Shown: positions 1,332 through 7,754 of the stretch, one piece after another
Layout: each line of letters opens with the position of its first letter
Position numbering within the stretch: position 1 is the first letter of the stretch
Assembly: GCA_018238965.1 (NCBI GenBank)
Contig: JABCSI010000007.1
Location: 1-35,887 of the forward strand
DNA from: Promethearchaeota archaeon
Lineage (GTDB): Archaea; Asgardarchaeota; Lokiarchaeia; Sigyniarchaeales; Promethearchaeaceae
DNA length: 35,887 nt
Direction of reading: 5' to 3'
Notes under the pieces: model-generated
Told to the model about the DNA's origin: nothing
The model's input: the letters and a program-made list of their open reading frames with translations, nothing else
The model's database searches: none
Program-made: the position numbers and the translations under genes

Positions 1332-3464
1332 ATGCTCCCATCGTGGAAAAGTATCATGAACACCCCGAAACAGCGCAAAATTCATCCCAATATGCTCCAA
1401 CGGCTCAATAGGCGTAATTCCAAGATATTTTTAAGTTTACTTGTTCTTTTTGGGTTTGCTGGTCTTGCCTCTGGCGTGGAAATCTTAAAACATAATTATA
1501 GTAGGATTGGCCAAGGAACATTTCAGACCGAATCTGCCTTATTTGGTTCGATGGAGAAAACGTCCTCAATATCGTTGAAGAGTGAAAATCCTGATTTAGC
1601 AGAGAATATTGGGGATCTCCAGCCGTTATCCGCGCCAATTCCCCAAGATCTTTTTGGATTTGAACTGATCCTGCCGGGAAAACACACATCCTTCCAAAAT
1701 CTTCCCGTTTTGACAATTAATATTACAAACGAGGAATTGGTGTTACAAACCAACTATCAATTTGAAATTAGCAACCGATCGGAGGGAACCGGATATAGCA
1801 ATAATTTCAGCTCGGGTTGGTTACCCTTCTTCCCATTGGAGAGTGTCAGTGTCACAGAAATGAACGCAATTTTTTCCGATTTATGGGAGCAATCGGCCGA
1901 AGGTGTACCTATTGCGGTTGAATTTTTCATCAACTTAGATAATTCATCTTACGAGACTCTGATTTATAAAGATTGGAGTGAACCCGAGGTTCAAGTCGGG
2001 TATAATCTCACTGTTAACAACACTATTATCCCAGTAGGAATCGATTTTTATCCTTTTAATGCACCTCCCATCCTTTATTTTAATATCACTGATAATGTGC
2101 CCAACAATGTAGTATTATCAATCATGGTCAACAACCGCATCCATCCATACAGCATTTCAGTGGATGTTCCAAAAATTAACCCGATAGGGGGGAATACTCT
2201 TTACAACGGGTTAGCAAATATTACTCTTTTGACTGAAGAGGGGATCTGGCAGAATATAATTGATGGGAATGTATCATTTGTTTATTCTATTCATGACGCC
2301 GCCGGAAATCCAACGGAGTGGAAGTTGCTAAGTTTTCTCAAAGATACCGTATCTCCCCACTTGGATAGTGGAATTCCAGATCGATCCTGGTTAACCATCG
2401 GTGATTATGAGATGGAATCTACTAATACTAATATAGGAAATGTCATTGAGGTTACTGAACGACCCCAAATGCTGATTACTTTGTATGATACTGATATAAA
2501 GATGGTTGGGTTAAAGATTCTTGATGTATCATTCTCATCCACTTTGAATACTTCCTCTTCATTAGATATTCCCACCAATGCGGGTTCACCACCCCAATCT
2601 GCCGAAATGAAGGAATATATTTACATTTCGGGAATTAAAAATGGGAGTAGTTGGATCATAGATATTTCTCCTGAAATTTGGGATTCATTGGAAGATGGTT
2701 TACTTAACATGCAGCTGGAGTTGGAGGATTTTGCGGGGAATTTCGCACTTTTTAAATTTTCTATGGTGAAGGTCGGAGACCAGAGTTCCAATATTACCCC
2801 CTTATATTTGTTTTTTGGTGCCAGTGCTGCCATAGTGCTGAGCTTGATCATTTTCAGTGCAATGCTAACGACAGATCGTCGACAACGGCTGTTCCAAATA
2901 GAAAGAGAAGAAAGAGAAGAAATTAGCAAGTGGGATTCCATTGATCCCGATCTCCTAGATCTTGTTTTGGAACCTCTCGATCACGTGAAATTGGCGCGGG
3001 TGTCGGTTCATTTCATGCGCGAAGGAAAAAATTTTGATCCAAATACAATCACAGAACCCGATTTAAAGGAATTTTTGAATGAACCCATACAATTGGTGCA
3101 TTTACAGGAGCTACGTCTGCTTTTAACCCGTTATCATATGAATCAATTGGATCAAGAAGAATTTGTCCACGAGATGTTTTCTTTATCTCCCCAAGAAAGG
3201 CGAAAATTTATTCTCAGGTACATGGAGAGTGGTAAACGAACTCTTCCCAAAGTAAGAAGGGTCAAGGATTCAAATTCTGGGCTTTCAAATCCCCGCATTC
3301 GGCTTCCCAGTGAGATTGCAAAAGAGTTATGGGGAACCTCTGAAGCAGATACCAATCAACTCGAAGATGAGTTATTGGGCGAGGAAGAAGATCCTTGGGA
3401 ATCTTTTGAGTCTTTAACCGATCAAGAAGATTCTCTCAATACAAATGAGGAGGGTTCAAAATAA
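1332..3464 (+). CDS. Type I membrane protein with large extracellular domain and cytosolic tail
   Basis: Function not recognised. This 710-residue protein has a basic N-terminus followed by a hydrophobic segment at about residues 31-50 (uncleaved anchor or signal peptide). A ~440-residue, Asn/Ser-rich outer region has many N-x-S/T sequons and beta-rich, Ig-like stretches (for example HDAAGN near 321-326). A second transmembrane helix lies at about 491-512, then a charged ~198-residue cytosolic tail ending in an acidic stretch. The layout is that of a single-span receptor or adhesin. ATG 1332 is preceded by GGGAG about 14 nt upstream; ATG 1356 is an alternative start without SD. The stop codon overlaps the next small ORF (TAATG), and a winged-helix regulator follows, so a sensing role coupled to transcription is possible but inferred. 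Confidence 0.8.
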   Translation: MLPSWKSIMNTPKQRKIHPNMLQRLNRRNSKIFLSLLVLFGFAGLASGVEILKHNYSRIGQGTFQTESALFGSMEKTSSISLKSENPDLAENIGDLQPLSAPIPQDLFGFELILPGKHTSFQNLPVLTINITNEELVLQTNYQFEISNRSEGTGYSNNFSSGWLPFFPLESVSVTEMNAIFSDLWEQSAEGVPIAVEFFINLDNSSYETLIYKDWSEPEVQVGYNLTVNNTIIPVGIDFYPFNAPPILYFNITDNVPNNVVLSIMVNNRIHPYSISVDVPKINPIGGNTLYNGLANITLLTEEGIWQNIIDGNVSFVYSIHDAAGNPTEWKLLSFLKDTVSPHLDSGIPDRSWLTIGDYEMESTNTNIGNVIEVTERPQMLITLYDTDIKMVGLKILDVSFSSTLNTSSSLDIPTNAGSPPQSAEMKEYIYISGIKNGSSWIIDISPEIWDSLEDGLLNMQLELEDFAGNFALFKFSMVKVGDQSSNITPLYLFFGASAAIVLSLIIFSAMLTTDRRQRLFQIEREEREEISKWDSIDPDLLDLVLEPLDHVKLARVSVHFMREGKNFDPNTITEPDLKEFLNEPIQLVHLQELRLLLTRYHMNQLDQEEFVHEMFSLSPQERRKFILRYMESGKRTLPKVRRVKDSNSGLSNPRIRLPSEIAKELWGTSEADTNQLEDELLGEEEDPWESFESLTDQEDSLNTNEEGSK

Positions 3465-3616
3465 TGAAGCCCCCTTTTGTCAATTATGTCAATTGTGTCA
3501 ATCGCGTTTTTTCATATTCCACGAATAATCGCGAAGGAAAATTCTTAAAGAAAAATTCGCATAGAAATATTGGGATTGGGATTGTGATTGGTCCAAAAGT
3601 GAGGTGGGAGTTATGA
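3464..3616 (+). CDS. Small 50-residue ORF between membrane protein and regulator
   Basis: Function not recognised. The ATG at 3464 overlaps the stop codon of the membrane-protein gene (TAATG), and a strong SD, GAGGAGGG, lies about 9 nt upstream inside that gene. The TGA overlaps the ATG of the winged-helix gene as ATGA (3613-3616). Both junctions are typical of translationally coupled genes, the main argument that this frame is used. The peptide starts MKPPFVNYVNCVNRVFSYS and is basic and Asn-rich; its first third has three V-N-x repeats encoded by a 9-bp tandem repeat. It ends in a small hydrophobic patch (IGIGIVIG). It could also be a translated leader whose only job is to deliver ribosomes to the regulator gene. 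Confidence 0.5.
   Translation: MKPPFVNYVNCVNRVFSYSTNNREGKFLKKNSHRNIGIGIVIGPKVRWEL
3478..3504 (+). repeat. Three tandem 9-bp repeats (TGTCAATTA type)
   Basis: TGTCAATTA, TGTCAATTG and TGTCAATCG follow each other without spacing. The 9-bp period keeps frame with the small ORF and encodes VNY-VNC-VNR. Confidence 0.8.
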
Positions 3617-4326
3617 AAATTGAAAAATTGACTGATATTGAGGACGAAACCTATCAAGTTATTAAGGGTATCCTCAAAAATCACAAACATTTCACCATGC
3701 AGGATCTACTCACTCAATGTTTTACTGTCTTATGTCCTCCCCATAGTGAGGAATCCGTTGATGCTGCCCTTAATTCGTTAGCAATTAAGCGATACTTTAT
3801 CAAAGGGACTTCCCTTACCAGAGAAGATGTGGCCAATAATGGCGTCAGAGCCCGTATTTTAACCTTTATTCAACAGAATCCGGGCGCCTATAATCGCTTA
3901 ATTAGGCGGGAATGCAATTTAGGTTCGAACGAATTCAAATGGCATCTGGGGATGTTGCTGAAATTCCACTTTATCAAAAAAATCCTGTTCAACGGCCGAT
4001 CCTACGGGTATTTTGAGGATCGGAATTACATGAATCATGAAGTTGATCTATTTCTGCTGCAAAACGAAAAAGTGAAAGCGATTTTGGATTATTTGTCAGA
4101 AACTCCCAATTCGATTTCGGGAATTGCCCGGGATCTGGGCATCCACTATAGCACCGTGCAGAAATACATGGAAATCTTGGTAGAACGGGAATTTTTACAA
4201 CCGATTGACGAAGCAACCCGTCATGAAATATACCAAGTCAATCAAACCTTGCAAATTAAACTGCAGAAAATTGTCAACGGTCAAGTATTCATTGAATTTG
4301 CAACCGAAGCCAGTAGCAGTGAATAA
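3613..4326 (+). CDS. Winged-helix DNA-binding regulator with tandem HTH domains
   Basis: A 237-residue cytosolic protein, likely a transcription regulator. After an N-terminal helical, possibly winged-helix part (about 1-65), a first winged helix spans roughly 75-125 (RARILTFIQQNPGAYNRLIR and following). A second spans about 145-195 and has a clear helix-turn-helix: SISGIARDLGIHYSTVQKYM, then a wing ending in EREFLQPI. ATG 3613 is preferred to GTG 3604 because GAGGTGG at 3601-3607 is well placed as its SD, and the ATG overlaps the stop of the small ORF upstream. Tandem winged helices of this kind are common in archaeal regulators. Co-transcription with a membrane receptor-like gene suggests it acts on its output. 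Target genes are unknown. Confidence 0.8.
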   Translation: MKIEKLTDIEDETYQVIKGILKNHKHFTMQDLLTQCFTVLCPPHSEESVDAALNSLAIKRYFIKGTSLTREDVANNGVRARILTFIQQNPGAYNRLIRRECNLGSNEFKWHLGMLLKFHFIKKILFNGRSYGYFEDRNYMNHEVDLFLLQNEKVKAILDYLSETPNSISGIARDLGIHYSTVQKYMEILVEREFLQPIDEATRHEIYQVNQTLQIKLQKIVNGQVFIEFATEASSSE

Positions 4327-4426: not shown

Positions 4427-5521
4427 TTAGGCTTTAATGGTTAATTCGTAATCGTTAATTAGTTTTTTTTGTTTCTTTGTCAAGCTGCGGTATTCCGGAA
4501 TGGCTATTTCTACACGCACGTAGTGATCTCCACGGCGAGGGTTCCGATTCAGAACTGGAATTCCCTTCCCTCGGAGACGTAGTTCAGTACCCGGAGTAAT
4601 TCCCGATGCAATCTTTATTTTCGTTTTACCACTGACAGTATCCACTGAGATTTCGCACCCTTTAATTGCTTGGATGAATGAACAATGAACTGTTGAATAA
4701 ACATCATTACCTTTGCGCACAAACCGCTTATCGGACTTTACCCGTATTAGCACATACAAGTCACCAGGGATTGCATCTACTGCTGGAAAATGCCCCTGTC
4801 CTTGCATTTTTAAGTGCATTCCGTCTTCTACGCCTGCGGGAATAGTAACGCTATGATCCTGCTTTGTAGGGACTGCTTTCCGACCTTTACAGACAGGACA
4901 TGGTTTTCCCACAACTTCTCCTTCACCTTGGCATTTGGAACATGAAACTACTTGTTGCATCATGCCTAAGATTGACCGAGTGACACGGGTTTCCTGTCCT
5001 GATCCGTTACATTGCGGGCACGTTTGTACATTTGTACCTCCCTTTCCTTCGCATTGACTACACGGTTCGTATCGGGTGTATTTGAGATTTTTCTTCACAC
5101 CTGTGACCATTTCATGGAATGTAAGTTTAACGGTGATTTCAACATCTTCTCCGCGTACGCGTCTTCGACGACGACCAGAGGATCTACCCTTGCCTCTACC
5201 GCCAAATATATCTCCGCCGCCAAAGAACATGTCCATAATATCCGAAAAAGAAGAAAATCCACTTGAAAAATCCATACCGTTCGTATCGAGTCCGTTGAAC
5301 CCGAAACGGTCATATTTCTCCCGTTTGTCGGCATCGGATAGTACCATATAGGCCTCGTTAATTTCTTTAAATTTATCTTGTGCTTCGGGTGCTTTATTTC
5401 GATCCGGATGCCACTTCATGGCTAATTTCCGAAAGGCTTTTTTAACTTCATCTGGGGTTGCTCCACGTTGAACTCCCAGAACTTCATAATAATCTCTTTT
5501 GTTCTTCATTCGATTAGCCAT
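4427..5521 (-). CDS. dnaJ: DnaJ (Hsp40) co-chaperone
   Basis: A full-length type I DnaJ of 364 residues. It delivers unfolded substrates to DnaK and stimulates its ATPase. The J-domain is at about residues 9-75 with the HPD motif in KWHPDRN. A Gly/Phe-rich linker follows ([17 protein letters not shown]), then a basic run (RRRRRV). The zinc-binding domain has four Cys pairs: [24 protein letters not shown] and CPVCKGRK, the last lacking the final glycine of CxxCxGxG. The C-terminal substrate-binding domain contains the [10 protein letters not shown] and GDLYVLIRV landmarks. The gene lies 274 bp downstream of dnaK on the same strand, but a terminator-like hairpin between them suggests a separate promoter. 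ATG 5521 is used; ATG 5509 (residue 5) is an alternative. DnaK/DnaJ are usually considered acquired from bacteria in archaea. Confidence 0.97.
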
Positions 5522-5728
5522 AGGACACGGGTCTCTCTGTTAATTTTATTGTTAGTATTGTTGGAATTGCTGTTTTAAAAATTTGTATGAGTATAATGTT
5601 GGTTTAATATTTTCAGTGAGTTGGTAATTTTGGTAAATTAATTGTTGTTTGAAGTGTTAATGTAATGGAATTTATGGTGAATTTGAAGATAAGGGTTATT
5701 TTGGGTTAATTTTGAAAGGTTTACTAAG

Positions 5729-5757
5729 AAAAAAAAAGGAAGTTCGATAAAGAACTT
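5729..5757 (-). terminator. Intrinsic-type terminator after dnaK
   Basis: On the minus strand a 6-bp hairpin (AAGTTC/GAACTT, 6-nt loop, 5740-5757) is followed two bases later by nine T (5729-5737). It lies 38 bp after the dnaK stop codon, upstream of dnaJ. Confidence 0.6.
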
Positions 5758-5795
5758 TTGGATTATGGATATTTGAGGTGGGCAGACGATTCTAT

Positions 5796-7754
5796 TTATT
5801 CGTCTTCCCACTCTACGTCTACAACTTTCTTCTTCTTTTTATCTTTACCTTTCTCAGAAGGTTGTTCGTAGGTTGCTCCACCCATATTTCCAAAACCTGC
5901 GCCGCCTTGGGCTGCCTGTTGGGCAAATTTAGCTGCTTGTGCTGGGTCCATTCCTCCCATTCCGCCGGGTTGTCCTCCCTGTTGCGCGTAGATTTTTTCA
6001 GAGAACTTATGTAAATGTTGCTCAAGGGCGTCTTTTGTTTCCTTGATGCGTGTGAGGTTATCTGCCTTAATGGCGTCTTTCACATCTTCGATGGCTTTCA
6101 GAAGATTGTTCTTCAGTTCGTCATCGAGTTTTTCGGCATTATCCTTCATCAGTTTTTCGGCTTGGAATGCCATGCTATCGGCCTCATTGCGGACTTCGAT
6201 GGCCTCACGGACTTTCTGATCCTCTTCAGCATGCTTTTCCGCATCCCTGATCTTGGTTTGGATTTCCTCTTCCGAGAGCTTGGATTGACCAGTAATGGTA
6301 ATGGACTGTTCTTTTCCAGTTCCCAAGTCTTTGGCACTTACTTTTACAATCCCATTTTGGTCAATGGAAAAGCCCACCTCCACTTGGGGTGTTCCTCGTG
6401 GTGCAGGAGGGATACCATCCAAGTGGAATTTCCCTAAAGTAATATTATCCTTTGCCATGGGGCGTTCGCCTTGCATCACATGAATTTCTACGCTGGGTTG
6501 ATTATCCGCAGCAGTGGAAAAGACCTTGGAGCGTTCGACAGGGATGGTAGTATTACGTTCAATTAGTGCGGTTGCAATTCCTCCGAGGGTTTCGATGCTA
6601 AGGGTTAAGGGAGTGACATCTAAGAGCAATAGGTCTTCAACTTCTCCGCTAAGAATTCCGCCCTGAATTGCGGCGCCCTGGGCCACACATTCCATAGGAT
6701 CGATTCCGGTTTCCGGCTTGCGTCCGAAGAAATCGCCGTAGGATTTTTGAACAGAGGGCATCCTGGATGGTCCACCTACCATAATTATCTTCTTAATGTC
6801 AATTTTACGAAGTTTTGAGTCGGTGAGAGCCTTCTCCATCGGTCTTGTTAACCGTTTGATGATTGGGTCGATTAATTCTTCGAATTTGGCGCGGCTCAAT
6901 TCCATATCTAGACTGAGGGGCTGACCATCCTTACCCATTGCGATGAATGGAAGGTTGATTCGGGTGCTGAAAGTTGTTGAAAGTTCGATTTTTGCCTTTT
7001 CGGCTGCATCAATCAATCGCATCATGGCTTGGGAATCACCTGTGATGTCAACGTCGGTTTGTTTGCGGAATTCTCGCACGATCCAATCCTTGACGATTTC
7101 ATCCATATCGGTTCCACCAAGAGCAGTGTCTCCTGAGGTGGATAGCACTTCAAAGACACCTTCGCCCATTTCCATGATGGTAACGTCGAAAGTTCCGCCA
7201 CCAAGGTCCAGGACAACCACTTTCATGCTGCCATGGTCTTTTTTATCTAAACCATAAGCGATACATGCTGCGGTGGGTTCGTTGATAATCCGAACAACTT
7301 CGAGTCCGGCAATTCGACCAGCATCTTTGGTTGCGGTGCGTTGGGCATCGTTAAAGTATGCGGGTACGGTAATAACTGCCTTTTCCAAGGGTTCTCCAAT
7401 GTAATCCTCCGAATCCTTCTTGATTTTTGCCAAGATCATGGAGCTGATTTCCTCAGGAGTATATTGCTTGTTTTCGATTGTGATTTTATCATTCGAGCCC
7501 ATTTTGCGCTTTATCTTTCTAATAGTGCGGTCTGGATTTGATACTGCTTGACGTCTGGCGGGTTCACCTACGATACGTGTGCCGTCTTTCAAGAAGGCAA
7601 CATAACTGGGGAACGCTTTACCACCAATAGAGACACCTTCTGCGGCAGGAATGATTTCTGGTTTACCACCGATCATGACGCTGGCCGCTGAGTTCGAGGT
7701 GCCAAGATCAATACCGAGGATCTTTTCTTTGTGAGTTTTTTTTTCTTCAGACAT
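5796..7754 (-). CDS. dnaK: DnaK (Hsp70) chaperone
   Basis: A complete 652-residue Hsp70 with ATP-driven folding activity in the cytosol. The nucleotide-binding domain begins with [15 protein letters not shown] (phosphate-1), continues with the [12 protein letters not shown] phosphate-2 loop and the adenosine motif [11 protein letters not shown]. The linker [11 protein letters not shown] leads into the substrate-binding domain. The helical lid ends in a Gly/Met/Gln-rich tail and VEWEDE. The N-terminal domain lacks the ~24-residue insert seen in Gram-negative DnaK, as in Gram-positive and archaeal copies. grpE is not in the window, although dnaK, dnaJ and grpE are often neighbours. The promoter region shows a BRE/TATA and a palindrome. 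The start is ATG 7754; GAAGTGA lies about 9 nt upstream. Confidence 0.98.

Follow-up and report, generated by a model that had tools for sequence, protein, structure and literature searches.

The window analysed here, a 35,887-nucleotide stretch of the genome of a Promethearchaeota archaeon, encodes a receptor-like membrane protein followed by a winged-helix regulator. The two probably form a kinase-free transmembrane signalling unit of two proteins, in which the cytosolic tail of the receptor would dock on and control the regulator; we put the probability of this reading at roughly 0.7. The pair is most likely a phosphorylation-free receptor-regulator system that acts in the manner of anti-sigma or one-component systems. 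At the level of sequence its support is well established and consists of a conserved gene order, a common tail under unrelated ectodomains, a winged-helix regulator and a set of natural fusions, while physical docking, the direction of control, the ligand and the target genes are what we infer. The ectodomain would sense something outside the cell, and binding there would alter the contact between tail and regulator. The tail, docked on its partner winged-helix transcription factor, would govern the access of that factor to DNA, either by sequestration or by membrane-held activation.

The features of the locus are as follows:
1,332 to 3,464, plus strand: open reading frame of the receptor-like protein (710 aa), with 28–37% overall identity to its homologues in four family genomes
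1,422 to 1,490, plus strand: signal peptide or N-terminal hydrophobic segment, about residues 31–53, predicted by hydropathy and present in five of five homologues
1,491 to 2,792, plus strand: ectodomain, about residues 54–487, without a Pfam match
2,793 to 2,876, plus strand: transmembrane helix, about residues 488–515, predicted by hydropathy
2,934 to 3,239, plus strand: conserved cytosolic tail domain, about residues 535–636, with the core LLLTRY..EEF..EM..L.P.ER, matched by class-wide profiles
3,240 to 3,461, plus strand: acidic, poorly conserved extension, long in this genus only (alignment of five homologues)
3,465 to 3,612, plus strand: spacer between receptor and regulator, containing a 50-codon ORF (3,464 to 3,616) that is not conserved
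3,475 to 3,502, plus strand: three tandem 9-bp repeats with a TGTCAAT core, within the spacer before the regulator
3,613 to 4,326, plus strand: winged-helix regulator (237 aa), by profile and homologue matches
3,844 to 4,014, plus strand: first winged helix, about residues 78–134, with Trp110-His111 invariant in 16 of 16 members of the family alignment
4,060 to 4,254, plus strand: second winged helix, about residues 150–214, with HxNTVxKY in the family and an ArsR-like fold match

An earlier sequence-only reading of this DNA had described a single-span protein with a large outer domain and a 198-residue tail, followed by a tandem winged-helix protein, and both descriptions hold: the frame at 1,332–3,464 has hydrophobic segments at about residues 31–53 and 488–515, with some 198 residues of cytosolic tail after the second by hydropathy, and the downstream protein has winged-helix regions at about 78–134 and 150–214. 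The start codon of the receptor at 1,332 is uncertain, since its relatives have shorter N-termini, and that of the regulator is taken to be the ATG at 3,613 because its homologues begin MKIE or MKLE. The window receptor matches no Pfam family. Loops of the form D-x-A-G-N suggest that the ectodomain consists of Ig-like sandwiches, and an AlphaFold model of the receptor contains mostly strands, at low confidence (mean pLDDT 40.0, 5 rows).

The source genome (G000) belongs to the same genus as Ca. Harpocratesius repetitus FW102 (G001), which is available as one contig of 4,361,485 bases, and three further members of the family carry the label Ca. Prometheoarchaeum sp. NCBI places both genera in the class Promethearchaeia, which we take to be the class also called Lokiarchaeia. 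A search with the receptor matched six of 59 genomes, namely its own, four other family members (33–41% identity) and, by a weak partial match, G041. In all four of these family members (G001, G004, G006 and G007) the receptor is followed on the same strand by the regulator; a lack of conserved linkage in relatives, which the sequence-only reading had named as a refuting outcome, was thus not observed. The regulator there is 48–60% identical, and the contig of G006 stops within it. The upstream neighbour varies: the gene at 72–779 has a counterpart in Harpocratesius, and a different gene occupies that place in G004 and G007. Downstream lie minus-strand genes at 4,427–7,754, presumably dnaJ-like and dnaK-like, that converge on the regulator, and what we take to be the dnaJ-like gene converges on it in the window, G004 and G007 alike.

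The sequence-only reading also placed a 50-codon ORF between the two genes, joined to both by overlapping stop and start codons. The junctions are real (TAATG at 3,462–3,466 and ATGA at 3,613–3,616), but the ORF as a gene does not survive comparison with the four relatives. In the window, 148 bp separate the receptor stop from the regulator start; the spacers of the relatives measure 57–108 bp and are AT-rich (18–23% GC). In G001 and G006, stop codons interrupt the frame that would end at the ATGA junction; the 24-codon frames open at that junction in G004 and G007 resemble the window ORF no more than shuffled sequences do (567 and 1456 of 2000 shuffles scored as high). A conserved peptide or gene was accordingly rejected. 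A scan for promoters and terminators gave no excess with the model used, which is of bacterial type and unsuited to archaea.

The receptor tail carries a helical motif of about 75 residues that extends far beyond the family. A profile built from 14 rows (A3) finds it at 116 places in 63 of the 83 class genomes. One built from 44 rows (A5) finds it in 75 of the 83 and, weakly (E 6e-6 to 8e-4), in three of the 144 other genomes of the phylum; in one of these three, G173, the transmembrane segment and motif are present without an adjoining regulator. Genomes contain up to about 18–20 tail matches, and the window's own genome contains a single one with either profile. The motif has no convincing match in Pfam, where the 44 tails reached two families, each through one member and both chance-like, or in NCBIfam, where no family matched more than one tail; PDB sequences searched with its profile gave nothing below E 0.086. 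Winged helices being common, every one of the 83 class genomes has a match to the regulator profile (A4). Within the order, in another family, relatives of the regulator often lie directly behind membrane proteins that have an unrelated ectodomain and a similar tail end.

The adjacency of motif and regulator is likewise class-wide. The counts are lower bounds, since all 116 A3 tail matches were compared with 127 regulator matches, the top part of a listing that was itself incomplete, with weak matches at its end left off. Counting regulators at most 500 bp away, at least 50 of the 116 tail matches (48 receptors, two of them with two motifs) have one downstream in the same orientation and at least 37 have one upstream in the same orientation, where chance would give about 0.05 in either case. 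Among the regulator matches listed, none lies at that distance in the same orientation for the remaining 29, some of them on short contigs, and none in the opposite orientation for any of the 116. When the contigs that carry the 14 sequences of the profile are set aside, at least 37 of 102 tail matches have the regulator downstream and at least 36 upstream. By genome, the receptor-first order is found in at least 28, the reverse in at least 37 and either in at least 53 of the 63 with a tail match.

The anatomy of the loci was followed in 44 receptor-first or fused examples (46 motif rows), a sample that is not random, many loci having been chosen for their pairing. The motif starts 14–169 residues past the last transmembrane helix in 44 of the 46 rows. 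The other two have values of 251, which would be nearer only if a transmembrane helix was missed, and 771 in L093, whose transmembrane segment at 728–746 fell slightly below threshold. In 37 of 42 unfused rows no more than 21 residues separate the end of the motif from the receptor C-terminus, and the gap between receptor and regulator ranges from −31 to 148 bp among the receptor-first rows examined. Several variants of this layout occur. Two receptors, L099:764-3649 and L110:1185-3302, have two consecutive tail motifs. Polytopic proteins with four to six predicted transmembrane segments and a C-terminal tail motif (L135:1176-2912, L136:1126-2616 and L139:821-2506) are followed by a larger regulator, of 284–304 aa. 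A small transmembrane protein with the tail motif directly follows the regulator in L021:651-1433 and in relatives at L017, L022, L026, L030, L031 and L033–L036, the regulator-first order counted above in at least 37 genomes; about 75 C-terminal residues of these proteins weakly resemble ubiquitin (best E 0.031), which is suggestive only of a ubiquitin-like domain.

What stands above the tail differs widely. Among 18 receptors or paired proteins scanned, NosD/beta-helix domains occur in six (L091–L094, L096 and L112), PKD domains in L091 and L094, Kelch in L095, an SBBP propeller in L101 and L104, cadherin in L104, and Big_7 in L105 and, slightly under the cut-off, L098. In the receptor at L100:447-4112 the ectodomain comprises an entire GH9 glycosidase domain (E 7e-110) and fn3, the protein also has a transmembrane segment and the tail motif, and its regulator frame is short (153 aa). 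With the thresholds applied, L018, L106, L107, L109 and L111 gave no ectodomain family, while L021 had just one weak match below cut-off.

One genome, G040, joins the two partners in single polypeptides. Its four receptor-regulator fusions (985, 1547, 1107 and 1038 aa) have the order signal peptide, ectodomain, transmembrane segment, tail motif, regulator. Among the loci examined, again not a random sample, the fused regulators form one clade (support 100/98), which points to a single fusion with later duplication. Even with the regulator covalently attached, the fusions retain the tail motif, which therefore probably does more than anchor the regulator at the membrane. A further group, L121–L125, has regulators of the same family that lack the tail motif and bear transmembrane segments immediately ahead of the winged helices; these are apparently membrane-anchored one-component factors.

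The regulator family is, judging from its matches, of the DNA-binding winged-helix type. In Pfam the window protein reaches HTH_24 (24.1 bits, cut-off 21.9) and HTH_IclR (22.7, cut-off 22), its other matches lying below cut-off; these include HTH_HVO_0163_N (PF24266; 23.9 bits, cut-off 31), to which the fused relatives score 38.8, 35.7, 41.7 and, in L093, 25.7 bits. Across 16 members, HTH_HVO_0163_N is matched by 15, HTH_24 by 12, HTH_45 by 10 and the ArsR-type HTH_5 by nine. In the HxNTVxKY motif, H, T, K and Y are each conserved in 15 of 16 regulators. Fifteen of the 16 are basic, the window regulator has a net charge of −2, and most tails are acidic. Most solved structures found with the regulator profile are of DNA-binding proteins, the ArsR family included, with 5duk as the best match (2.1e-7); two Z-DNA-binding kinase domains are also among them. 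Foldseek matches to the model of tail plus regulator mirror the second winged helix (best E 9.5e-4).

That model itself (mean pLDDT 51.3, pTM 0.28, 3 rows) is too poor to give a usable interface. Distances among tails correlate with those among regulators at 0.61 over 44 pairs from the same non-random set of loci, a value reached by none of 500 permutations and uncorrected for shared descent. Within G040 the correlation is 0.28 over 12 paralogous pairs (61 of 5000 as high), with the nearest neighbour agreeing in three of 12, and the four pairs of G024 give no signal. Joint inheritance can be reflected in such a correlation.

One competing account is that the regulator merely controls its own operon, with the receptor gene as a target and without any contact with the tail. 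Regulators commonly adjoin the genes they control, so that adjacency alone would be expected, and the threefold 9-bp repeat in the spacer could serve as the site. The TGTCAAT repeats are possibly an operator, or else due to chance; the window shows no enrichment of the sequence (5 observed against 8.35 expected), and no such tandem repeat was seen in the spacers of the four relatives. Since autoregulation would also leave the common tail under unrelated ectodomains and the fusions unexplained, we consider it unlikely. It is somewhat less likely still that the receptor serves as an adhesin or as an enzyme at the surface, that the pair tunes the surface coat and that the signal passes through another, unlinked factor. 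Beta-helix, Kelch, GH9 and Ig-like domains, the types found here, are also frequent in adhesins and enzymes and would suit such a role, which however accounts for neither the conserved cytosolic motif nor the fusions.

The tandem winged helices invite yet another comparison, with ESCRT-II subunits, which are built in the same way. An adaptor of the Vps25/EAP30 type would bind membrane proteins, perhaps with ubiquitin-like domains, and one branch of the regulators is indeed paired with the small transmembrane protein whose C-terminus is weakly ubiquitin-like (E 0.031). In Pfam, however, the regulators match HTH families that bind DNA, and the matches listed include neither EAP30 nor ESCRT-II; the second winged helix is similar to that of ArsR repressors. 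Of the accounts weighed here we find this one the least probable. The source genome has one match each to PF05871 and PF04157, both on contig C307, outside the window, and the regulator was set aside as an ESCRT-II candidate.

A receptor that docks on and controls its regulator is thus the reading we prefer. The sequence-only reading had proposed a membrane-to-DNA unit without a histidine kinase, and for receptor and regulator the class-wide adjacency, the common tail and the four fusions support this well, while the small ORF drops out of it. The unit would be an additional rather than the only signalling route, since the genome also has kinase-type and receiver domains: 27 HATPase_c matches, 26 above cut-off, which need not all be kinases, and 22 response-regulator or receiver domains, many in the same frame as a histidine-kinase-type ATPase domain and few free. 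We are evenly divided on the wider proposal that a signalling system peculiar to Lokiarchaea operates across the class, a phosphorylation-free archaeal counterpart of anti-sigma control in which one cytosolic docking domain would link diverse receptors (putatively beta-helix, Kelch, glycosidase-like, Ig-like and polytopic) to paired winged-helix factors.

Little is known of the ways in which the archaeal relatives of eukaryotes perceive their environment. The tail motif and the regulator family yield a testable genome-wide list of receptor-regulator pairs, the natural fusions are useful for structural work, and the GH9, beta-helix and Kelch ectodomains hint at sensing of carbohydrates or of partner surfaces. 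No description of the system was found in the open-access papers searched.

Several known systems resemble it in part. RsgI/SigI systems employ a sigma factor and have an N-terminal cytosolic part, whereas the window pair employs a winged-helix regulator and carries its motif in a C-terminal tail. The likeness to RsgI/SigI of Clostridium thermocellum lies in a membrane protein with a substrate-sensing outer domain and its own transcription factor, and in the expansion into paralogous sets (PMC12203970). As in anti-sigma/sigma systems, a membrane receptor with a variable ectodomain is encoded beside its transcription factor. The partner is not a sigma factor; the matches are to winged HTH families, with one weak Sigma70_r4_2 match among the 16 regulators (E 0.0022). 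The commonest match of the first winged helix is to the N-terminal HTH family of HVO_0163 (PF24266), for whose function no account was found. Archaeal two-component systems also carry signals from membrane to gene (PMC5847659), but the window pair has neither a kinase nor a receiver domain in Pfam. Transmembrane transcription regulators and other one-component systems combine membrane sensing with DNA binding and dispense with a histidine kinase (PMC10269533), and ArnR/ArnR1 of Sulfolobus are an example of such membrane regulators (PMC6396743). A transmembrane segment and a DNA-binding domain share one polypeptide only in the four G040 fusions among the loci examined; separate ORFs encode them in 40 of those 44 loci, as they do in the window. 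In contrast to one-component systems, the unit in the window thus consists of two polypeptides, which the tail motif would link.
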